From IMG/VR virus record IMGVR_UViG_3300033993_000248, positions 1 to 32,403 of that record: DNA of 32,403 nucleotides; one strand, given 5' to 3'. Positions 8,578 through 32,403 of the stretch are shown here, one piece after another (the first letter of the stretch is position 1; the number at the start of each line of letters is the position of its first letter). The stretch comes from a virus. A program made the position numbers and the translations under genes. Below the pieces are notes generated by a model. That model did not search any database. It had not been told where the DNA came from and saw nothing but the letters and a program-made list of their open reading frames with translations.

Positions 8578-8918
8578 AAACAATAAAAATAAAAGCAACT
8601 AAACGAATACCAGTAAAATTCACATTCAATCATCCTGATGGCAGAGTGCTGGAGAAAATAATATACACTAATAACGTAGCAAAATATTTAAAGCTATTCA
8701 ATGGATCTACTGAAGCTGGACTTAAATGGACAATGGTACCATTCAAGAAATATAGAGTTTGGCTAGAGGATTCTGTGGAGCCTGATGGTGGCACATGGTG
8801 GTATTGTTATCAAGATGCTAATGGCTATCTAAGACAAGAGGGGTATGATCATCCAGCTGATGAGCTTGACACATTAGAGCAATACATTGCATGGGGATAT
8901 AAAATTGAAGAGATATGA
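8574..8918 (+). CDS. Early protein, 114 residues, unknown
   Basis: Starts with a Lys-rich strand (KTIKIKATKRIPVKFTF) and has a Trp/Tyr-rich centre (GGTWWYCYQDANGYLRQ) and an acidic end. The pattern suggests a small beta domain. It is coupled to its neighbours by 4-base overlaps and precedes the DnaA-like gene. Function is unknown. Confidence 0.65.
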   Translation: MKTIKIKATKRIPVKFTFNHPDGRVLEKIIYTNNVAKYLKLFNGSTEAGLKWTMVPFKKYRVWLEDSVEPDGGTWWYCYQDANGYLRQEGYDHPADELDTLEQYIAWGYKIEEI

Positions 8919-9334
8919 ACACATCAATGATAATGGACCTAGCTGAGAAGCATGGACTAAAAGTAAGAAACAGAAAGCGAGAGCTGGTGTACAAGAGATA
9001 CTACCTTTGGTCAGAGCTTAGAAGATGGCACAGCCTTGATGCCATTGGGAAGATGTTTGGAATGGATCACTGTTCTGTACTGCATGGACTCAAGCAGCAC
9101 AACATTTGGATGAGGGCCAAAGACTATGAATATCTAAAGACAATCAATGAGCTGCACAAGGAGGTACATGAAGATTATCTGATACAAATGGAAGAGGACA
9201 AAGTGTGGATGTGCGTGGATCATGTATCAGGCAACATGATTACATTGACTCTGAAGCTCAATACAGACGATTCTAGCCACTTTCTTGATAAGAGTGGATA
9301 CATTACTAGGGAGGACTTAAAAGAATTGCTATGA
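8915..9334 (+). CDS. DnaA domain IV-like DNA-binding protein
   Basis: A 139-residue protein. Residues 16-65 closely follow the DNA-binding domain IV of DnaA: a basic segment RNRKRELVYKR, then SLDAIGKMFGMDHCSVLHG, the counterpart of the DnaA signature IG..FG.RDHTTVLHA. The AAA+ ATPase part of DnaA is absent. The remaining 70 residues are unlike DnaA. It lies about 340 bases before an iteron cluster and upstream of the primase-helicase, so it could bind the phage origin or compete with host DnaA. The motif is seen; the role is inferred. Confidence 0.75.
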   Translation: MNTSMIMDLAEKHGLKVRNRKRELVYKRYYLWSELRRWHSLDAIGKMFGMDHCSVLHGLKQHNIWMRAKDYEYLKTINELHKEVHEDYLIQMEEDKVWMCVDHVSGNMITLTLKLNTDDSSHFLDKSGYITREDLKELL

Positions 9335-9585
9335 GGAACAAATTAAGACGAATGTCAGCTATTGTATATTGCCTTCAACAAAGGCCGTACACAATTGCAA
9401 GACTGCATTCCAGGATCAATCATATACTATCCGACAATTACAGCCAGTCATCCATTGAGAAAGATATCTTTATGCTCAGAGAAGAGTTTGATTGCCCAAT
9501 TGAGAAATGTCCAGCTGGACTGGTGATCCTAGAGGACTATGACTTCATTGCTAAGCTCACAGAATGGGTGCAGCTGTATGAATAA
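9331..9585 (+). CDS. Winged-helix DNA-binding protein
   Basis: An 84-residue protein with the plan of an HTH_11/WYL-type N-terminal winged helix: RRMSAIVYCLQQRPYTIARL, then a recognition helix around SQSSIEKDIFMLREEF, then a short wing. It overlaps the DnaA-like gene by four bases and is the last gene before the iteron region, so it may regulate the adjacent origin or promoter. Confidence 0.6.
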   Translation: MRNKLRRMSAIVYCLQQRPYTIARLHSRINHILSDNYSQSSIEKDIFMLREEFDCPIEKCPAGLVILEDYDFIAKLTEWVQLYE

Positions 9586-9801
9586 TCTGATTGCCGATTA
9601 CATCAGCTCCTATTCTATATATATTTTATTTTTAAAGAATGTGGTAAAAAACTTTTTTTTCAAAAAATGTCAAAATAAATCGGATAATCGGCTGTTGCTT
9701 GATTATCAAATAGTTACAATTAAAATAAATCGGCAATAAATCGGATGTTTAAAAATAAATCGGATGTTAAATAACATATCAATATTTGTTTTACATTTGC
9801 A
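9586..9801. other. AT-rich intergenic region, candidate replication origin
   Basis: About 216 bases without a convincing gene. It holds T-rich and A-rich tracts at about 9615-9680 (for example eight T at 9653-9660), the four AATAAATCGG repeats, and a TACATTTG box at 9792-9799. An in-frame ORF across it lacks sense as a protein. AT-rich tract plus iterons upstream of a replicative helicase gene is the standard plan of a phage origin. Confidence 0.55.
9674..9768 (+). repeat. Four AATAAATCGG direct repeats (iterons)
   Basis: Exact 10-base copies lie at 9674-9683, 9724-9733, 9735-9744 and 9754-9763. The last two extend to the 15-mer AATAAATCGGATGTT (9735-9749, 9754-9768). A partial copy AATCGG is at 9686-9691 and an inverted CCGATT at 9594-9599. 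They lie between the DNA-binding genes and the primase-helicase, which fits binding sites of an initiator or repressor. Confidence 0.75.
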
Positions 9802-9912
9802 ATGTCCTATGCAGAGGATTTGAAGAACTTATTAAAGGCTCTTTTGGCGAGTAGTGCTGCATCACGAAAGCTGAAGGGGCCTTTTCATTTAACATACATT
9901 CTAGAAAGATGA
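9802..9912 (+). CDS. Possible 36-residue leader peptide
   Basis: ATG 9802 opens a frame that ends at TGA 9910-9912, overlapping the primase-helicase ATG (9909) as ATGA. The peptide starts MSYAEDLKNLLKALLASSAA and is helical with a basic end. The 4-base overlap suggests translational coupling. A TACATTTG -7-like box ends three bases before the ATG, so such a transcript would be nearly leaderless. It may be a real small protein, a leader or chance. Confidence 0.35.
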   Translation: MSYAEDLKNLLKALLASSAASRKLKGPFHLTYILER

Positions 9913-12284
9913 TCTCAATATACAAATCAGTACAGCAGACATTTGATAAGAACTACATCACTGTAGAAACTGCCATTGAAAGGATAAAAAATAGTAGGTA
10001 CAGAGATCGTATTCTAAAAATGCGGACTCTAAGCAAGGATGAATATACCATTGAGAAAAACAAATTACCAGTATACAGATGGTCAGGAGTTTTTGAGTAT
10101 GGCAATGATGCTGGAATTAAGACTCACAGCGGACTCATATGCTTAGACTTTGACAAGTATCCTAATGATGAGGTGATGGCAGATCATAGAGCAAAGTTAT
10201 GTGCAGATCCTTACACATACATTCTGTTCACATCACCATCAGGCAAAGGATTGAAAGTAGTGGTGAAGATTACAGATGTAATTGAGAATCACAGAAAGCA
10301 CTTTCTATCTTTGAAACAACACTTTGATTCTGAGTATTGGGATAACAGCTCCATCAATATCTCAAGGAATTGTTTTGATTCCTATGATCCTGACATCTAT
10401 GTCAACAACAACAGTGAAGTGTATCTCAGTATCATTGAAGAGGTTGAGGATATTGATGTCACTTATGTGGCTACAATACCAATGAGGTCAACAAATAAGA
10501 TCATTCAGAACATACAAAAATGGTTTGACTCAAAGTACCAGCTCTCAGAAGGAAACAGAAACAATAGCTTTTTTAACCTGGCATCAGCATTCAACAGATA
10601 TGGCATCCAGCAAAGTGAATGTGAAACATACATTCTCAATAATTACATTGATGTACTGGGAAGGGATGAGCTGCTGCAATGCATAAAATCAGGATATAGA
10701 GATAAGGGAGCCTTTGGCACATCACAATTTGAGGACAAAGAGATTATCAACTATGTTAAAAATGAACTGAAGCAAGGTGAAAAGCCTAAGACTATAAAGT
10801 CAAAGCTCAAAGAATACTCAGAGGATGAGGTTGAGATAATCATGGATAAGGCTGAAAGTGAATTAAAAAACTTTTGGAGGAAAAATGATAAGGGCCGAGT
10901 GACACTATCACCTACTTTGTACAGAGATTTTCTAGCAGAGAATGGATTCTTTAAGTATCAGAATTCAGAGCTGTCATATCTGTTTGTCAAGGTTGAGAAT
11001 AACTTTGTAAAAGAAATCAATGAGGATCTAATCAAAGACTTTGTCCTGGATCATGTTGAGAAGCAAGGTGATCATGTAGTGTTTGACTTCATGGCATCAG
11101 TTACTAAGTATTTTAAACGTGACTTTTTGAGCTACATGAAAGCAAAGGATGTAGATTTTATTAGAGATGTCAAAGATAAGGCCTATCTATTCTATAAGAA
11201 TTGTCTAGTAGAGATCACAGCCAAGTCAGTAGAAGAGAAACAATATGTTGACTTTATTCAACATGTTTGGGATAAGCAAGTAATTGATAGAGTTTACAAA
11301 AAATCTAGCAGCAAATGTGATTTTCAACAGTTTATTGTTAATATTAGCAAGACTCAAGATAGATATGATTCATTCAGATCTGTGATAGGTTACATGTTGC
11401 ACACTTACAAGAATCCATATTACTCACCAGCTATAATCTTAAATGATGAGGATATCTCTGACAATCCACAAGGAGGAACTGGAAAGGGAATAATCACTGA
11501 AGCACTAAGTAAGTTTAAAAATACATGCACCATCAACGGAAAGAACTTTGATCCATCTAAGGACTTTGCATTCCAGCGAGTCAGCCTTGATACTCAGATA
11601 CTCATATTTGATGATGTCAATGAAAACTTTGACTTTGAAAAGCTCTTCTCAATTGTAACGGATGGGATGCCAGTCAACAAGAAAAACAAGGATGAATTCT
11701 TTATTGAGAAGGATAGAACGCCAAAGATTGCAATCCCCACAAACTATGTATTGAAAGGTGAAGGGAATTCACATGAACGTAGAAAATTTGAAATAGAACT
11801 ACACAATCACTATGACAAGACCTTCACACCATTCCATGACTTTGGCCGCAATCTATTCTATGATTGGGATGAGCAAGAGTGGAGCAAGTTTGACAACTTC
11901 ATGATTGAATGCATCCAGTATTATTTAAAGAATGGCATTGTCAACTATGCATCAGTTAACCTGGATGAGAAGAGATTGATGTCTGAGATAGGTCATGACT
12001 TCTATAGCTGGATAAATGATAACATGAAATTCAATGAGAGAATGATTCTTAAGGATATGTTTGAGAAATTCTGTGATCAGTATCCTACTTACAGAAAGTT
12101 TAGTCAGAAGTATACATCAGGCAGAATCAGAAAGTATGGAGATTATCTTGTAAAGAAAGGAAAACTTACAAGAGTAGATGCTGGTAAACAGAATGGCTCC
12201 ATTCCTTACATTGAATATGTGACTGAACAAAAGAAAGAATCTGAATGGGATAATTTACAAACAATTGATAAAGCACCTTTTTAA
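9909..12284 (+). CDS. Primase-helicase (VirE-N / DUF5906 type)
   Basis: A 791-residue replication protein. Residues about 50-190 form a VirE-N (BT4734-like) archaeo-eukaryotic-primase-related domain, with GLICLDFDKY and FTSPSGKGLKVVVKI. Residues about 215-290 look like a primase C-terminal helical segment. The C-terminal half is a superfamily-3-like helicase: Walker A GGTGKG near residue 522, Walker B ILIFDDV near 567, and the sensor-like IAIPTNYVLKGEG near 617. It should unwind and prime phage DNA at the origin. It directly follows the iteron region. The family is common in Bacteroidota phages and mobile elements. Confidence 0.85.
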   Translation: MISIYKSVQQTFDKNYITVETAIERIKNSRYRDRILKMRTLSKDEYTIEKNKLPVYRWSGVFEYGNDAGIKTHSGLICLDFDKYPNDEVMADHRAKLCADPYTYILFTSPSGKGLKVVVKITDVIENHRKHFLSLKQHFDSEYWDNSSINISRNCFDSYDPDIYVNNNSEVYLSIIEEVEDIDVTYVATIPMRSTNKIIQNIQKWFDSKYQLSEGNRNNSFFNLASAFNRYGIQQSECETYILNNYIDVLGRDELLQCIKSGYRDKGAFGTSQFEDKEIINYVKNELKQGEKPKTIKSKLKEYSEDEVEIIMDKAESELKNFWRKNDKGRVTLSPTLYRDFLAENGFFKYQNSELSYLFVKVENNFVKEINEDLIKDFVLDHVEKQGDHVVFDFMASVTKYFKRDFLSYMKAKDVDFIRDVKDKAYLFYKNCLVEITAKSVEEKQYVDFIQHVWDKQVIDRVYKKSSSKCDFQQFIVNISKTQDRYDSFRSVIGYMLHTYKNPYYSPAIILNDEDISDNPQGGTGKGIITEALSKFKNTCTINGKNFDPSKDFAFQRVSLDTQILIFDDVNENFDFEKLFSIVTDGMPVNKKNKDEFFIEKDRTPKIAIPTNYVLKGEGNSHERRKFEIELHNHYDKTFTPFHDFGRNLFYDWDEQEWSKFDNFMIECIQYYLKNGIVNYASVNLDEKRLMSEIGHDFYSWINDNMKFNERMILKDMFEKFCDQYPTYRKFSQKYTSGRIRKYGDYLVKKGKLTRVDAGKQNGSIPYIEYVTEQKKESEWDNLQTIDKAPF

Positions 12285-12489: not shown

Positions 12490-12937
12490 ACAAAGACTTA
12501 TTGATCTTGAGACAGCACATCTCAAAGAGAAATATCCATCAATGCCTGAATTCGCACTGGCAAAGACCAAGTGGGCAGACTCATCAGCCAATGCTCTGAC
12601 TAAATCAGTGGTGTCATTCATCAACTTATCAGGCTATCAAGCTGAAAGAATCAATACTACTGGAATGTGGAGGCAAGGAGCCAAACTTAAGGTAGGTGAG
12701 GGCACAAGACAGATGCCAGGGAAGTGGACCAAAGGAACTGGCACAAAAGGATCAGCTGACATATCAGCCACAATCAATGGCAGATCAGTTAAGATAGAGA
12801 TTAAGTATGGCAAGGATAGACAGTCTGAAGCACAGATAAGATATCAAGAAATGATAGAGAAAGCTGGAGGAACATATCTAATAGTTAAGTCATTTGATGA
12901 TTTTATTCAATGGTTTGATTTGTTTATCTCATGCTGA
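12473..12937 (+). CDS. VRR-NUC-type nuclease
   Basis: A 154-residue protein ending in a VRR-NUC/Holliday-junction-resolvase-like core: GSADISATINGR with Asp96, KIEIKYG with Glu109 and Lys111, and the following QSEAQIRYQEMIEKAGG helix and LIVKSFDDF strand. That is the PD-(D/E)XK catalytic set. In phages this family is thought to resolve branched DNA during replication or packaging. The N-terminal 60 residues are helical and not part of the core. It overlaps neighbours by 17 and 7 bases. Confidence 0.75.
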   Translation: MNKENKQRLIDLETAHLKEKYPSMPEFALAKTKWADSSANALTKSVVSFINLSGYQAERINTTGMWRQGAKLKVGEGTRQMPGKWTKGTGTKGSADISATINGRSVKIEIKYGKDRQSEAQIRYQEMIEKAGGTYLIVKSFDDFIQWFDLFISC

Positions 12938-13581
12938 CGATAACTAACGAGGATAATATGGAGCTTATGGCTAGGTATCCTGATAATTACTTTGACTTAG
13001 CAATAGTTGACCCGCCTTATGGGATAGGTGAAGATGGTGCTAAAAATCATTCGAGAGGTAAAGCAACAAGACCTACAATGTACACTGCTAAAGATTGGGA
13101 TAGTTCAGCAACTTCAAAAGATTATTTTATTGAGCTTATAAGAGTATCAAAACAAGTTATTATTTGGGGAGCTAATCATTTTATTGAAAATATACCTAAT
13201 TCAAACAGTTCAAGTTGGGTGGTTTGGGATAAGCAAAACGGAGATAATGACTTTGCAGATTGTGAACTTGCATGGACAAACCATAAAACAGCTGTAAGAA
13301 AATTTGAATTTAGATGGGCAGGAATGCTGCAAGGGGATATGAAAAATAAAGAAACACGAATACACCCAACTCAAAAACCCGTTGCACTTTACAAATGGAT
13401 CTTAGACAAGTACGCAAAGGAAGGAGATAAGATACTAGATACTCACTTTGGCTCAGGAAGTATAGCAATAGCTTGTCACGATTACGGATTTGATTTGACA
13501 GCTTGTGAGTTAGATAAAGAATATTTCGATAAGGCAATGTTGAGAATTAATAACCATACAGCTCAACAAAAACTATTCTAA
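12931..13581 (+). CDS. Orphan DNA methyltransferase (N6-adenine or N4-cytosine, beta class)
   Basis: A 216-residue SAM-dependent methyltransferase with catalytic motif IV DPPYG at residues 27-31 and the SAM-binding FGSGS at about 173-177. This order, with IV before I, is the beta class (PF01555). RIHPTQKPVALYKWI precedes motif I as usual. No restriction enzyme lies nearby, so it probably protects phage DNA. The gene is visibly AT-richer than its neighbours (bases 13141-13200 are 25% G+C against 43% at 14521-14580), which suggests recent transfer. It probably gives A or C methylation of a short site that cannot be told from sequence. Confidence 0.85.
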   Translation: MLTITNEDNMELMARYPDNYFDLAIVDPPYGIGEDGAKNHSRGKATRPTMYTAKDWDSSATSKDYFIELIRVSKQVIIWGANHFIENIPNSNSSSWVVWDKQNGDNDFADCELAWTNHKTAVRKFEFRWAGMLQGDMKNKETRIHPTQKPVALYKWILDKYAKEGDKILDTHFGSGSIAIACHDYGFDLTACELDKEYFDKAMLRINNHTAQQKLF

Positions 13582-16913: not shown

Positions 16914-17629
16914 TTGTAGCTCCTATTCCAGTGAATGGCAGAAGGCCACTGCTCAAAATCACAATCACAAGACTTCAGAAGGTAGGAGTTAAAGTCATCT
17001 GCATGGGCCATGATCCTGAAGACAAGGAGCTGTGCATCAAGCTAGGTGCCGAGTGGATAGAGATATCCAATGATCCACTGGGTGCAAAGTGGAATGCTGG
17101 ATTTATGGCAGCTAAGAAATACAATCCTACTGGGGTGCTGTTTGTTGGCTCTTCTGACTGGGTGTCAGATAATTACATCCAAGAGGCTGAAGATAAGCTC
17201 AAAGAGTTTGACATGGTAGGAAAGCTAGGATGTCACTTCATTGATGTGGATGATAAGATCAGACTTGTCAACTGGACTGGATACGGCAAAGGACCAAGAT
17301 CCTATGAGCCTATAGGTATTGGCAGAATGCTATCCAATAGATTCCTTGATAAGATCAACTGGCAGCCATTTGACAAGAGATTGAACAGCGGACTTGATTG
17401 GGCCATGTGGCTCAGAGCAATCATCAGTGATGCATCCATTGGAATATTTGATGCAGATGAGATACAATTCTTGTCAATCAGTACAGATAAGTGGGAGAAT
17501 AAACATAAATTTGAGGATCATTGGACCGGCAAATTAAAGAGTGAACGCATCACCGGCAAAGAGCAGATTGCATTCCTTCAGTCATTCCCTGAAATATATG
17601 ATTTACAAAATGAACTATGCGGAGAGTAA
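16910..17629 (+). CDS. Glycosyltransferase, GT-A fold
   Basis: A 239-residue protein. The opening MIVAPIPVNGRRPLL and the Asp-containing LFVGSSDWVSDNY at about residues 78-90 match a GT-A sugar transferase of glycosyltransferase family 2 type, and the helix around SGLDWAMWLRAII fits its acceptor half. The donor and acceptor cannot be told. It begins a cassette with a SAM methyltransferase and an amidotransferase-like enzyme. It overlaps the HeH gene by four bases and the next gene by 13. Confidence 0.65.
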   Translation: MIVAPIPVNGRRPLLKITITRLQKVGVKVICMGHDPEDKELCIKLGAEWIEISNDPLGAKWNAGFMAAKKYNPTGVLFVGSSDWVSDNYIQEAEDKLKEFDMVGKLGCHFIDVDDKIRLVNWTGYGKGPRSYEPIGIGRMLSNRFLDKINWQPFDKRLNSGLDWAMWLRAIISDASIGIFDADEIQFLSISTDKWENKHKFEDHWTGKLKSERITGKEQIAFLQSFPEIYDLQNELCGE

Positions 17630-18156
17630 AGGATAAAATAAACACCAACAGCATGGTATTTTGGGATGATTACTATGCTAGTGTTGATATTGAAGAGGAT
17701 AGGCTGATAATTTATGAGCAACTGTCTGAGATCCTAAAACAGATAAAATTCAATACTATACTAGAAATTGGATGTGGTACTGGCATAGGAGCTGAATATA
17801 TCAAGAATCAGTTTGATTGCATATATACTGCATCAGACTTCTCAATGATAGCTGTCAACAAAGCTGCTGACAAAGCGGATCACATTCAGCTGCTAGATAT
17901 CAGAACAGATGAGCCATCCAGCCAATACGATGTGATTATCATTGCAGAAACACTAGAGCATCTTGAGAATCCATTTGAGGTGATTGACAAATGCAAGAAG
18001 TATTGTAAATATCTTGTGCTATCTTTGCCACTGGATGAGCCTGAAGATTGTGATGCTGAACATATTTGGTACAATATTAATCCTATAGACTTTGCTGATT
18101 ACAATATACACATAGTCAATACAAACGAAAGCTATTTTCAAATAATTATAACATGA
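17617..18156 (+). CDS. Class I SAM-dependent methyltransferase
   Basis: A 179-residue Rossmann methyltransferase. Motif I is ILEIGCGTGIGAEYI at about residues 48-62; SDFSMIAV and YDVIIIAETLEHLENP supply the second acid and the loop. It resembles small-molecule methyltransferases (Methyltransf_11) rather than a DNA methyltransferase, since no DPPY is present. ATG 17653 (MVFWDDYYA) is an alternative start. It lies between a glycosyltransferase and a PP-loop enzyme, so sugar or nucleotide methylation is plausible. Confidence 0.8.
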   Translation: MRRVKDKINTNSMVFWDDYYASVDIEEDRLIIYEQLSEILKQIKFNTILEIGCGTGIGAEYIKNQFDCIYTASDFSMIAVNKAADKADHIQLLDIRTDEPSSQYDVIIIAETLEHLENPFEVIDKCKKYCKYLVLSLPLDEPEDCDAEHIWYNINPIDFADYNIHIVNTNESYFQIIIT

Positions 18157-19223
18157 AAAAAGAATGTAAAAGATGCCTATTCACTTCTGACTTCGCTGTC
18201 ATAGGTAGTAAGCAATGCAACTATTGTGATCTACATGATGAGCTACAGCAGCAGTCAAATCCTGAAGAGCTTAATGGAGTTATCAACAGAATCAGAGAGC
18301 ATGGCTATGGTGACAAATACGATTGCATCATGGGGATAAGTGGAGGTCTTGACAGCTCAGTATTACTGTACACTGCTGTACGTTACTGGGGCCTCAAGCC
18401 ATTGGTGATCCACTTCGATAATAACTGGAATGCACCACAAGCTGTCCACAATATGCAGCAGCTCATCAAGAAGCTGAATGTGGATGCAATCACATACCAG
18501 GTGAACAAATCAGAATATGACAAACTAAATGAAGCATTCCTTTACGCTGGACTGCCTGATGCAGATATCCCCAATGACATTGCCATGACAAAGCTGATGT
18601 ACGATACTGCACACAAGTACAAGATCAAGTACATTCTCAATGGTCATGACTTCAGAACTGAGGGATCAACACCAGCATCATGGACATACATGGATGCCAA
18701 ATACATCAGATCAGTGTACAAGGCATATACACAAGCGGAGCTAACTAACTATCCACTATTCACATTCAAGGATCAACTGTACTATGCACTGAAGGGCATC
18801 AAGAATGTTAGGCCATTCCACTATGGATTTGACAGAGAGACAATGGAGCTTGAAATGAAACGACTGATCCAATGGCAAGACTATGGCGGCAAGCATTGTG
18901 AGAATGTTTACACTGAGTTTGTAGGGAGCTTTCTATTGCCGAATAAATTTGGCATTGATAAGAGAATAGTATATCTTTCTGCACAAGTCAGATCAGGCAG
19001 ATTGACAAAGCAACAAGCTAGAGAGCTATTCGATATTAAGCCTGAGTTTGACATGACAAAGCTAGGGGAATACGAATCCAAAATAAATGCACTAATTAAC
19101 CTTCGCAAAGGTGATAGAGCCAAATATGAGAAATACAACTTCAAAGCCTATAGGCCACTGATATGGATCCTGGCAAAGATGAAGGTGGTGCCGTATACAT
19201 TTTACACTAAATACTGCAAGTGA
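18153..19223 (+). CDS. PP-loop ATPase, N-acetyl sugar amidotransferase-like (WbpG/PseA family)
   Basis: A 356-residue protein. Residues 5-25 hold a Cys4 set (CKRC, CNYC), and the PP-loop GISGGLDSSV lies at 61-70. LNGHDFRTEG follows at about 162. This order is that of the N-acetyl sugar amidotransferases (TIGR03573), which use ATP and ammonia to turn an acetamido group into an acetamidino group in LPS or flagellar sugars. In those pathways ammonia comes from HisH/HisF-like partners, not encoded here. The start overlaps the methyltransferase stop by four bases. A nucleotide-modifying role is the alternative. Confidence 0.75.
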   Translation: MKKECKRCLFTSDFAVIGSKQCNYCDLHDELQQQSNPEELNGVINRIREHGYGDKYDCIMGISGGLDSSVLLYTAVRYWGLKPLVIHFDNNWNAPQAVHNMQQLIKKLNVDAITYQVNKSEYDKLNEAFLYAGLPDADIPNDIAMTKLMYDTAHKYKIKYILNGHDFRTEGSTPASWTYMDAKYIRSVYKAYTQAELTNYPLFTFKDQLYYALKGIKNVRPFHYGFDRETMELEMKRLIQWQDYGGKHCENVYTEFVGSFLLPNKFGIDKRIVYLSAQVRSGRLTKQQARELFDIKPEFDMTKLGEYESKINALINLRKGDRAKYEKYNFKAYRPLIWILAKMKVVPYTFYTKYCK

Positions 19224-28243: not shown

Positions 28244-30724
28244 ATGGCAAATAAGGAAGCAGTATTTTCACTACGGGTTGACACTGGCAACAGTGTTCAG
28301 GATGTGCAATCATTTGACAAGGCAGTCAACAATCTGAATAAGGATCTGCAAGCAACACAGAAAACTGCTGCCTCAGATGCTGGCACAGATGCCTTTGCTG
28401 AGAAACTAGCGGAGCTAAATGCAAGGGTTGAAGCTGGAGGATTGAGCTTGAGAGAGATGACTCAAGTCATGAAGCAATATCAGACTATTGCAGCTCAAGC
28501 TGGTGTTGAGTCACCAGTGGGTGCTCAGGCCATTCAGAATGCTGCGAATTTAAAGGATGAGATAGGTGATCTAAAGGCACAAACCACAGCTCTCTCCTCT
28601 GACTTTGTGGGCCTTGATACAGCACTAGCTGGGATTGATACTGGAGCAGCTATTTTTGGAGGCTTTCAGTCAGCCATTGCATTGACTGGTGTAGAGTCTG
28701 AGCAATTGGTGCAGACAATGGTGAAGCTGCAAGCTGTGCAAGGTGTGGTGAATGCAGTGAGCACTGTTGCCAACAATTTGAATAAAGAGGCTATTCTAGG
28801 GATTCAACTTAGGAATGTAGCACAAAAGATTCAGAATGCATTCATAGTTGAGAATACAGCAGTCACTACTGGTAATGCTGTTGCCACTACAGCCATGAGC
28901 ACAGCACAGAAAGCTGCTGCTGTTGCTACCAATTTGGGAACATTGGCCATGAAAGCATTGAATGCTGTGATGAAAGCCAATCCAATATTCTTGATTATTG
29001 CTGCACTTGCTGCTATTGCTGGAGCATTCATTGCGTTTGGTGACAATAGTGCTGAAGCTGCTGAGTCAAATGAGAAATTCAATAAGAGTCTTGAGAATGG
29101 CCGTAAAGCTCTTGATGATTCATTCAGTGCATTGCAGAAATATACAAGCAACAGAATAGCTTTGATGAAGGCTGCTGGTGCAACTGATGAAGAGATCACC
29201 AAGGCTGAGATTAAGAATCTTGAGATACTAGCGAAGGCTCGCCAGGATGCAAGAGTCAAAGAGCAGTATGGATTCCAGAACTTACAGAAGAGATATCAGC
29301 AGATGCTGGATCAAGGTAATGAGGATGAAGCTGCCAAGATCAGAGAGCAATTGACTACATCAAGAGAAAGATATGTCAAGCTGGGTCAACAAGCCAAAGA
29401 CTACTATGCAGACATCAAGCAGCAGAGAGCAATTGATGCAGCTGAGAATGTTAAGAAGGTACAAGATAACGCTAAGAAGGTAGCAGAGAACGCTGAGAAA
29501 GTACAGAAGGATCAAGCTGATAAGTCAAAGGCTGCTGCTGATAAGGCAAGAGAGCAAAGAAAGCAAGACCTAGCTAAGATAAAAGAGGTTGAGGATGCCT
29601 TCAATCTGTCAATGCTTTCCAATAAGGAGCAAGAGATTGCAGCAGAACAAAAGAAATTTAACGAGGTTATAGCACTAGCAGTCAAGAATAATCAAGATAC
29701 TACTACATTGAGGCTGGCTTTGAAAAATTCCTTGAATGATATTGAGGCTAAGTATGCACAGATAGAGATTGATCTAGCTGATAAAACAGCCAAAGAAAAA
29801 AGAGATATTGAGATTGAAACATTCAACAAGAAAGAAGCTCTAAGAAGGGAAGAGATTGCAACAGAAGAGGCTTTCTTTGATGAATACAATGCAGCTTTAT
29901 TGACTGCTCAACAGACAGAAGAGCAAGCAGTGACAGACAAATACTTCAAACTGATTGAGGGTGCCAAACAATACGGCCTTGATATCACTAAACTAGAAGA
30001 GCAGCAGCAACAAGAGATCAGTAAGATTCAAAACAAATACAATGCTGAGAGACTTCAAAAACAGCTGGACAATGCTCAGTTTATCTTTGACCAATTCAGT
30101 GCCTTAAATGATGCCTTTAGCTCATTGGAGGATGCAAGGATGCAGAACATGCAAACAAGAGCCAATGATGAGCTGTCTGCATTGGATGCCAAGCATAAGA
30201 AAGAGCTAGAAGGTCAGAACTTAACAGCTGATCAAAAGAAAGCAATTGATGACAACTATGCAGCTGCAAAGTATCAGATTGAGCTAAAGAATTTCAATGC
30301 ACTTGAGGCTATTAAAAAGAAACAATTTGAACGTGATAAGATTCTCAGAATAGGTCAAGCAGCTATAGATACTGCTTCAGCAATTGTGAAAGGGATTGCT
30401 CAGTTTGGGCCGCCGCCATCCCCAGCTGGTATTGCTGCGATTGCATCAGCTGCCTTGATTGGTGCTACACAAATAGCTGCCATTGCTGCAACAAAATATC
30501 AATCAGGAACTGCGCCAACATTTGACACTAGCGGAGGTGTATCTGCTGGAGCTTCAGCCAATGAATTAGGTGGTGCCAATGCTAACACAAATACACAGCA
30601 GACTGATCTTACTGGATTGGCTGCACAGCAATCAGCTGGAATCAATCAAGTGTATGTCTTAGAGTCTGACATCACTGGCACACAGAATAATGTGGCTATT
30701 CAGAACAAGCTCAGTGTGTGGTAA
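28244..30724 (+). CDS. Tape measure protein
   Basis: 826 residues from ATG 28244 (an in-frame TTG at 28232 lies in the terminator tail). It is mainly helical, with long charged coiled coils at about 385-640 and Ala/Gln-rich segments. A hydrophobic stretch PIFLIIAALAAIAGAFIAFG lies at about 246-265, and a Gly/Ala-rich one lies near residues 705-755. It should set tail length and be ejected with DNA. By the usual 1.5 angstrom per residue, the tail would be roughly 120 nm. It is the longest protein here. Confidence 0.9.
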   Translation: MANKEAVFSLRVDTGNSVQDVQSFDKAVNNLNKDLQATQKTAASDAGTDAFAEKLAELNARVEAGGLSLREMTQVMKQYQTIAAQAGVESPVGAQAIQNAANLKDEIGDLKAQTTALSSDFVGLDTALAGIDTGAAIFGGFQSAIALTGVESEQLVQTMVKLQAVQGVVNAVSTVANNLNKEAILGIQLRNVAQKIQNAFIVENTAVTTGNAVATTAMSTAQKAAAVATNLGTLAMKALNAVMKANPIFLIIAALAAIAGAFIAFGDNSAEAAESNEKFNKSLENGRKALDDSFSALQKYTSNRIALMKAAGATDEEITKAEIKNLEILAKARQDARVKEQYGFQNLQKRYQQMLDQGNEDEAAKIREQLTTSRERYVKLGQQAKDYYADIKQQRAIDAAENVKKVQDNAKKVAENAEKVQKDQADKSKAAADKAREQRKQDLAKIKEVEDAFNLSMLSNKEQEIAAEQKKFNEVIALAVKNNQDTTTLRLALKNSLNDIEAKYAQIEIDLADKTAKEKRDIEIETFNKKEALRREEIATEEAFFDEYNAALLTAQQTEEQAVTDKYFKLIEGAKQYGLDITKLEEQQQQEISKIQNKYNAERLQKQLDNAQFIFDQFSALNDAFSSLEDARMQNMQTRANDELSALDAKHKKELEGQNLTADQKKAIDDNYAAAKYQIELKNFNALEAIKKKQFERDKILRIGQAAIDTASAIVKGIAQFGPPPSPAGIAAIASAALIGATQIAAIAATKYQSGTAPTFDTSGGVSAGASANELGGANANTNTQQTDLTGLAAQQSAGINQVYVLESDITGTQNNVAIQNKLSVW

Positions 30725-31352
30725 GAAATTTTACTTGTGTGCTTCCTCTCATCCACTGATCTGAGCATGAGAATGAGCCATAGAGGTCCAGCAATTGTTG
30801 GGCCTTTTTTGTGTCACTGCCTAGCTTGAGATTCTGTCCAGGTGAATGTGGTACCTGGTAGTAATTAAGATAGAGTGATTTCACAAAGTGATTGTGCCCC
30901 TCCCAAGATATTGAGTCAAACAATTCAATGAGCTTCTGACTATCCATCATCACTGGCTGATGACATTCAAAGTTTATTGTGGTGCATCCCATAGCTTTGA
31001 GCACATCCATAGTATTTTGACAAGCCTCCTGATATGTGGGTGCATGAAGGTCATTGATCATCAGATTGCCATTTGATATCACTGTATCCTCATTGAATTT
31101 AGGACCAAGAAAGAAATCATCATTCATGTATAGGAACTTGCCGCCAATGTGCCGGGCAAATGTCAACAGCTTGTGAGTCACATCACATCCTCTGACAGAT
31201 GACCTTGCATCAGGGATGATGTTATTGTATCCTCTGACATGATCACCAATGATATAGACTTCTGCATTAGGATATCTCTTTAAGGCCCAGTTAATGGAGT
31301 GCTGTATTGTGCTGCCTTCCTTGCCTTGTTTATGTGGGTATACTAGAATCAT
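30711..31352 (-). CDS. Stealth-like glycan phosphotransferase/glycosyltransferase, lone minus-strand gene
   Basis: A 213-residue protein and the only convincing minus-strand gene. KFLYMNDDFFLGPKF at about residues 91-105 matches the conserved region 2 (FLY.NDD.FLG) of Stealth capsular sugar-phosphate transferases, and FECHQPVMMDSQKL fits the next conserved His-Pro block. The GDHVRGYNN stretch near 35-43 is also typical of this fold. Its start CATG shares bases with an in-frame ATG for the protease (31351), and its end overlaps the tape measure by 14 bases. It could alter host surface sugars, or a glycan on the virion. A start at 31367 is possible. Confidence 0.7.
   Translation of the reverse strand: MILVYPHKQGKEGSTIQHSINWALKRYPNAEVYIIGDHVRGYNNIIPDARSSVRGCDVTHKLLTFARHIGGKFLYMNDDFFLGPKFNEDTVISNGNLMINDLHAPTYQEACQNTMDVLKAMGCTTINFECHQPVMMDSQKLIELFDSISWEGHNHFVKSLYLNYYQVPHSPGQNLKLGSDTKKAQQLLDLYGSFSCSDQWMRGSTQVKFLTTH
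30784..30810 (+). terminator. Plus-strand terminator embedded in the minus-strand gene
   Basis: AGGTCCAGC (30784-30792) pairs with GTTGGGCCT (30797-30805) with two G-U pairs and loop AATT, then T6 (30805-30810). It lies 60 bases after the tape measure stop. On the opposite strand the same bases encode residues near the C-terminus of the Stealth-like protein (KKAQQLLDLY). Confidence 0.75.
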
Positions 31353-31377
31353 GGAACAAAAATACATATTATCTAAT

Positions 31378-32002: not shown

Positions 32003-32403
32003 ATGAACGAGAACTTCAAAAAAGTAATGGATGCAATTGCTGACATGAAAGCAATGTTTTCAACATCTGCTGAAGCTACTGAAACAACAGAAGCTCAAGC
32101 ATTTGGTGAGGCAGTTTTGCTAGATGGTACAGCTGTATCATATGAGGGTGAACTAGCAGTGGGAACTACTGTATTTATTGTTGCTGATGGTGAGCAGATT
32201 CCAGCTCCGGAAGGTACACATGAATTGGGTGGTGAGTTTACTGGAATCAAGATCATAACAGATGCCAATGGTGTAGTGTTAGAGGTTATTGATGAGAGAG
32301 CAACAGAACAAGCAGCAAGCTCTGATGAGTTTGAAGCTATTGATACTGAAGAGATGCCAGCAGCACTAGAAAGAGCTACAGAGGTAATCGCTGCAACTTT
32401 GAA
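32003..32403 (+). CDS. Scaffold-like capsid assembly protein, 5' part (continues at base 1)
   Basis: ATG 32003 opens the scaffold gene, with MNENFKKVMDAIADMKAMF forming an amphipathic helix. It then enters the PAPEGTHEL domain, runs off the end of the window and resumes at base 299. The joined gene (32003-32105 plus 1-635) gives 245 residues. It is preceded by the A-rich leader AATAACAAACAA. The role is inferred from position between protease and capsid. Confidence 0.75.
   Translation, partial: MNENFKKVMDAIADMKAMFSTSAEATETTEAQAFGEAVLLDGTAVSYEGELAVGTTVFIVADGEQIPAPEGTHELGGEFTGIKIITDANGVVLEVIDERATEQAASSDEFEAIDTEEMPAALERATEVIAATL
32106..32403. repeat. Terminal overlap, right copy (matches 1-298)
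   Basis: 298 bases matching the window start with 11 mismatches and no gaps. The mismatches crowd toward the end: seven of eleven lie in the last 60 bases. This fits a circular unit of about 32,105 bp assembled from a mixed population. Confidence 0.9.

Follow-up and report, generated by a model that had tools for sequence, protein, structure and literature searches.

The virus genome examined here (IMG/VR virus record IMGVR_UViG_3300033993_000248, positions 1 to 32,403; the whole stretch of 32,403 bases that was analysed is termed ‘the window’) carries nearly all of its genes on the plus strand, and its longest non-coding stretch (9586-9908; 323 nt, the second longest being 145 nt) separates two small upstream genes from that of a large primase-helicase. 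The first of the small genes (8915-9334, plus strand) encodes a 139-residue protein resembling DnaA domain IV (Bac_DnaA_C; Pfam PF08299, E 1.3e-5, below the curated cutoff), and the second (9331-9585, plus strand) encodes a putative 84-residue helix-turn-helix (HTH) protein, for which a weak PuR_N match was the only one found. The primase-helicase (9909-12284, plus strand; 791 residues) contains a BT4734/VirE-type N-terminal domain (BT4734-like_N), PriCT-1 (PriCT_1) and DUF5906, followed by a predicted C-terminal winged-helix topology. Its relatives in genome contigs come mostly from Bacteroidota MAGs, and these, together with a TAnnTTTG element that precedes a leader RNA upstream of the gene, point to Bacteroidota as the host phylum.

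Several other features of the record can be set beside this locus. The window’s ends (1-298 and 32106-32403) form a near-identical overlap of 298 nt with 11 mismatches, as if the genome were circular or terminally redundant and had been assembled from mixed strains. A gene with an N6/N4 DNA methylase domain lies shortly after the primase (12931-13581); a methyltransferase-domain gene and a PP-loop ATPase-like gene lie beside a gene of 239 codons lacking a Pfam match (17617-19223), perhaps as a sugar-modification cluster; and a 218-residue open frame on the minus strand (30711-31367; no Pfam match at E 0.01) is possibly the sole minus-strand gene of the window.

A preliminary description of the locus, drawn from its letters alone, had proposed 9586-9801 as a replication origin bearing four exact repeats, two of them extended, next to AT-rich tracts; the repeats themselves were confirmed. 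The sequence AATAAATCGG occurs exactly four times on the plus strand (at 9674-9683, 9724-9733, 9735-9744 and 9754-9763, or 50, 11 and 19 bases from start to start), is confined to 9674-9763, and has no further copy at one mismatch or fewer in the whole window. Such repetition is far beyond chance: when 216-nt sequences of matching composition were simulated, a 10-mer present four times appeared in none of 20,000 under an order-1 Markov model and in 1 of 20,000 under an order-2 model. The third and fourth copies have the 15-mer AATAAATCGGATGTT in common (9735-9749 and 9754-9768), with starts 19 bases apart. The conserved unit, however, is not the 10-mer but its core AATCGG, outside of which close relatives vary; most of them have AGTAAATCGG or ATCAATCGG as their third copy, and the four exact 10-mers are thus particular to this record. 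Two AATCGG sites are found in addition to those within AATAAATCGG: a short core on the plus strand (9686-9691; TTATCGG in many relatives) and one on the minus strand at 9594. The latter belongs to a left inverted iteron at 9590-9599, where ATTGCCGATT is the exact inverse of AATCGGCAAT at 9728-9737.

Counted as a 6-mer, AATCGG has six copies within 330 nt on the 5’ side of the primase (a count reached in 0 of 200 shuffles) and is absent from the rest of the window, so that every site lies 5’ of the primase gene and none 3’. Across 13 aligned rows the iteron cores are 92% invariant, against 66% for the remainder of the stretch, and core sets shifted along the stretch match that invariance in 2% of cases. 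The inverted copy at 9594 lies on one side of an unstable AT-rich tract (9606-9672) and five direct copies on the other (9678-9763), the left set being minimal in that it consists of a single copy. The tract is a candidate unwinding element; the segment 9610-9669 within it is the third least stable of all 60-nt segments in the window.

Between the right-hand copies lies a mid-origin element, TGATTATCAAATAGTTA (9700-9716, plus strand), which contains a match to WATCARNNNNTTR, a consensus that we take to be of the IHF type. The window has 9 sites for this consensus where 5.9 are expected, so that taken alone it does not exceed chance. The motif TGATWATCANNNAGTTA, at one mismatch or fewer, lies within 330 nt upstream of 25 of 74 VirE-type primases, including some only about 42% identical to that of the window; three more loci have a copy displaced outward by an extra gene, about three copies occur elsewhere in 665 kb, and the enrichment is descriptive, because the motif was noticed while the same sequences were being compared. 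Further downstream is TACATTTG (9792-9799, plus strand), of the form TAnnTTTG, which is presumably the -7 element of a Bacteroidota-type promoter; no TTTG is present at the -33 spacing. Matches to TAnnTTTG are a weak signal alone (39 in the window, 28.7 expected); the element keeps its position ahead of the leader in both kinds of relative described below. Scans for sigma-70 promoters and terminators gave nothing clearly above chance, and a blastn comparison of the intergenic stretch with phages returned weak AT-rich matches only. Cumulative GC skew, which had been put forward as a check on the origin, did not serve as one: its detrended extrema fall at 13.4 kb and 25.8 kb, with no signal at 9.7 kb, and it is uninformative here, given that the genes are almost all on one strand.

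The promoter-like element is followed directly by a leader RNA (9804-9884, plus strand) composed of two conserved and covarying hairpins. Hairpin 1 (9804-9819) presents the loop AUGCAG (9809-9814), and the terminator-like hairpin 2 (9834-9884) presents the apical loop CUGCAU (9857-9862), which is complementary to loop 1. A 36-residue open frame over the same region (9802-9912) was considered as a leader peptide and rejected, on account of frame-breaking indels in relatives and of the covariation of the stretch as RNA. A pattern scan of viral contigs, with three chance matches left out and repeats merged, yielded 26 distinct trimmed leaders, in which hairpin 1 was called by its stem alone, independently of hairpin 2. 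All 26 contain the exact reverse complement of loop 2 inside the called hairpin-1 loop, and in 23 the two strings are identical; in L077, L113 and L099 the called loop extends by one base at either end (GAAGCAGA, enclosing AAGCAG). Six loop pairings occur, and when loop partners were permuted among the seven called combinations, the observed exact matches were reached in 2 of 5,040 orders, a figure not corrected for relatedness. Within an alignment of 14 distinct leaders, from which the variable linker was cut out, 97.8% of cells pair, and the covariation score is 0.449, compared with 0.170 for shuffles (none of 500 attained the observed score) and at most 0.131 for slid versions of the structure; the six-pair loop-loop helix is 100% paired and includes three covarying pairs. 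The ‘kissing-loop’ structure is thereby well supported by comparison of sequences. No Rfam family reached its gathering cutoff in the window or in 18 related loci.

Phages that lack iterons have the same leader as well; there a DnaA-like gene precedes it and a DUF6291 or other gene follows. A script located a third loop-1 hexamer of the same variant, 3-4 nt ahead of the following gene’s start codon, in 15 of the 28 distinct leaders; in L096, for which the script had taken an earlier start, it was read by eye (the loci are L070, L075, L077, L079, L080, L082, L083, L085, L088, L091, L095, L096, L099, L111, L113 and L114). No such copy was found in L097 or in any of the 11 leaders followed by one of the two primases or by the inserted small gene. 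For phages with a DUF6291 or other replication gene in place of the primase, we tentatively suggest that loop 2 could pair with either loop-1 copy and so act as a translational or attenuation switch controlling the initiation of replication, with a constant leader family standing beside an exchangeable cassette; we hold this to be a reasonable possibility, somewhat short of an even chance. Two further observations concern leaders. An extra small gene is inserted between leader and primase in L067 (4467-4835) and in L009, with the origin pushed further upstream. Several relatives with the second primase described below have an unrelated leader sequence of apparently like topology, in which a 5’ segment and the loop of a terminator-like hairpin share a complement of 7-10 nt (L145, L146, L148, L149, L168, L175 and L195 by script, L131 and L133 by eye; no chance estimate accompanies these).

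Relatives that possess the same two upstream genes fall into two cassette types. ‘Type A’ combines AATCGG iterons with the window’s VirE/BT4734-type primase-helicase; ‘type B’ (L051, L057-L060 and L065) has no AATCGG and instead combines GTGTGCA/TGTGCAC repeats with an unrelated 742-residue Prim-Pol/DUF3987 primase. The leader and its promoter-like element accompany both. The upstream genes do not follow this division, since their mean identity is 94.0% for A-B pairs, as against 93.0% among type-A and 95.1% among type-B loci, and cassette type shows no clustering on the upstream-gene tree (6 changes, against a shuffled mean of 6.1). Iterons and primase, when these genomes are compared, have thus been exchanged as a unit beside constant genes for DNA-binding proteins. 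In one genome, L068, A repeats come first, then B repeats and the B primase, so that its AATCGG iterons lack their cognate primase; judged by its sequence, it is a recombinant.

These exchanges bear directly on which protein would recognise the repeats. The preliminary description had placed the repeats between the DnaA-like gene and the primase-helicase gene, which is correct except that the HTH gene lies there as well, and had suggested the products of the two upstream genes as initiators. An origin bound by either of these phage proteins, or by host DnaA, has in its favour that both genes are directly upstream of the repeats, that Bac_DnaA_C matches were obtained in 12 of 14 searched records with VirE-type primases (the search missed the window’s own copy), and that DnaA-like genes precede the leader in iteron-free phages too. 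Against it, L050 (type A, AATCGG) and L051 (type B, GTGTGCA) do not differ in their HTH proteins, nor in the DnaA-C segment at residues 14-64, which includes the recognition helix; DnaA-like genes are also present where no iterons lie upstream; and the DnaA box TTATNCACA is absent from 9586-9801, both exactly and at one mismatch, with one site at a single mismatch just outside (9577-9585). Because the same upstream proteins occur with either type of repeat, neither of them fixes the repeat sequence, and we regard this alternative as unlikely. The DnaA-like protein probably does not set iteron specificity, and the primase, or something that travels with it, appears to be the better candidate.

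The AATCGG repeats, whose conservation had been proposed as a further check, are retained in close relatives, whereas more distant ones carry other repeats instead. Significant repeats were found 5’ of the primase in 28 of 33 sampled type-B loci (matched by no more than 1 in 300 shuffles; primase identity 58-97%), and the other five failed the exact-repeat test. A region of 330 nt contains as many as 11 copies, compared with a maximum of 5 in shuffles; since the sub-window was picked for its best score and only that sub-window was shuffled, slight excesses carry no weight. Subgroups differ in the 7-mer that is repeated (TGCACAC, TGTAACA, TTACACA, GTTTACA, TTTCACA, TGGGACA, GGGCACA and others). 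Among type-A relatives, L203 (71% identity in the best segment) has CTTGCAC four times and L205 (66%) has ATTGGCA four times, each reached in 2 of 200 shuffles; L206 (66%) shares the layout of L205, but its repeats are not significant alone (19 of 200, 6-mers). In L205 and L206 the repeats lie between the leader/terminator and the start of the primase, downstream of the promoter, and in L203 the order is repeats, promoter and gene, with no leader. From these positions it follows that the repeats stay with the primase gene rather than with the promoter. Short repeats can be seen by eye immediately ahead of the start codon in many type-A loci at about 42% identity, most of which fail the exact-repeat test. 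Judged from these sequences, repeats are kept just 5’ of the gene in most relatives of both primases, even though their sequence differs.

The architecture of the primase-helicase is compatible with a role as initiator. Its AlphaFold2 model (mean pLDDT 82.1, pTM 0.55) does not give a reliable domain arrangement, and domain-level matches alone are considered. Foldseek retrieved African swine fever virus PrimPol, poxvirus D5/E5 chains and the SaPI5 primase-helicase (PDB 7ola; E 5.8e-11, TMt 0.55), the last of these indicating similarity of fold only; a PDB sequence search with the primase profile returned nothing meaningful. The predicted secondary structure of residues 696-771 (H-E-H-H-E-E) suggests the winged-helix topology of the C-terminus. 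In a partial Mantel scan of type-B primases, variation in the C-terminal HTH was not specifically associated with iteron sequence (partial r about 0). Among type-A proteins at 66-71% identity the C-terminal wing is one of the most divergent domains, but the N-terminal domain is nearly as divergent, so that this proves little.

Several described systems unite comparable components. The SaPI/PICI elements encode a primase-helicase that, to judge from the model, is of similar fold. The C-terminal domain of SaPI Reps binds origin iterons, which are element-specific and adjoin the rep gene (PMC7581432), as the repeats do here, and PICI origins display two sets of short iterons on either side of an AT-rich region (PMC6092414), the left set being reduced in our case to a single copy. 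In contrast, the SaPI/PICI origins are just 3’ of rep and belong to satellites, whereas the block described here is 5’ of its gene in a tailed-phage genome; lacking an origin 3’ of rep, it falls outside the PICI family as that is defined. The alpha protein of satellite phage P4 likewise contains primase, helicase and a winged-helix domain that binds origin repeats (PMC4234260); in the window’s protein, a winged-helix topology is predicted at the C-terminus. Its primase is of the TOPRIM class, rather than BT4734-like_N plus PriCT_1. The P4 iterons are not known to be related in sequence to those of the window. Both pRN1 ORF904 and Bordetella phage BIP-1 resemble the present protein in joining an archaeo-eukaryotic-type primase, an SF3 helicase and a C-terminal winged helix, but a downstream stem-loop without iterons has been proposed for them (PMC4234260), where the iterons of the window lie upstream. 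Iteron plasmid origins of the RepA type share direct iterons near helical-turn phasing and an AT-rich tract, and differ in that the window has no exact DnaA box and that the adjacent replication gene encodes a primase-helicase, not a RepA-type initiator. Most likely the locus is an iteron origin specific to its primase-helicase, akin to those of SaPI/PICI elements and P4 and located 5’ of the gene.

Taken together, the repeats, the AT-rich tract, the mid-origin element and the joint change of repeats and primase support the reading of 9586-9801 as a phage replication origin, as had first been proposed; it is likely, in our judgement, that this origin is paired with, and recognised by, the primase-helicase encoded at 9909, rather than by the two upstream proteins. 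Confidence is higher for the origin itself than for its binding partner. Under the mechanism that we infer, the primase-helicase would bind the AATCGG iterons, probably via its C-terminal winged-helix domain, at the one inverted copy left of the AT-rich tract and the five direct copies to its right, the latter phased by about one, two and five turns of the helix. The conserved TGATTATCAAATAGTTA might act between the right-hand copies, possibly as a bend. The bound protein would then assemble helicase rings and open the AT-rich tract, and would prime both strands.

Iteron plasmids also have autoregulatory and copy-number (‘incompatibility’) sites, and the repeats could be bound by the primase-helicase mainly for such a function, with initiation occurring elsewhere. 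This would account equally well for the linkage of repeats with primase; it is nonetheless improbable, given that the AT-rich, low-stability tract and the mid-origin element sit inside the repeat block and that AATCGG occurs nowhere else in the window. Less probable still is that the repeats are operators for a regulator of the promoter at 9792-9799, and hence of primase expression, with the origin elsewhere: they do lie directly upstream of the conserved promoter-like element and leader, and the HTH gene adjoins them, but they are downstream of promoter and leader in L205 and L206, they are replaced along with the primase, whereas the promoter, leader and upstream regulators are retained, and the DUF6291-type phages have the same leader without repeats upstream.

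If the reading of an origin served by its own primase-helicase is correct, many Bacteroidota-associated phages would initiate replication at origins in which iterons and primase-helicase are swapped as one cassette, with such swaps occurring between otherwise similar genomes and with iteron sequences diversifying within a single layout. These loci would then constitute a natural series for the study of how self-loading primase-helicases read DNA, and would offer a short test plasmid for a group without phage origins described in the literature searched. The kissing-loop leader RNA, absent from Rfam, is in turn a testable candidate regulator of phage replication.
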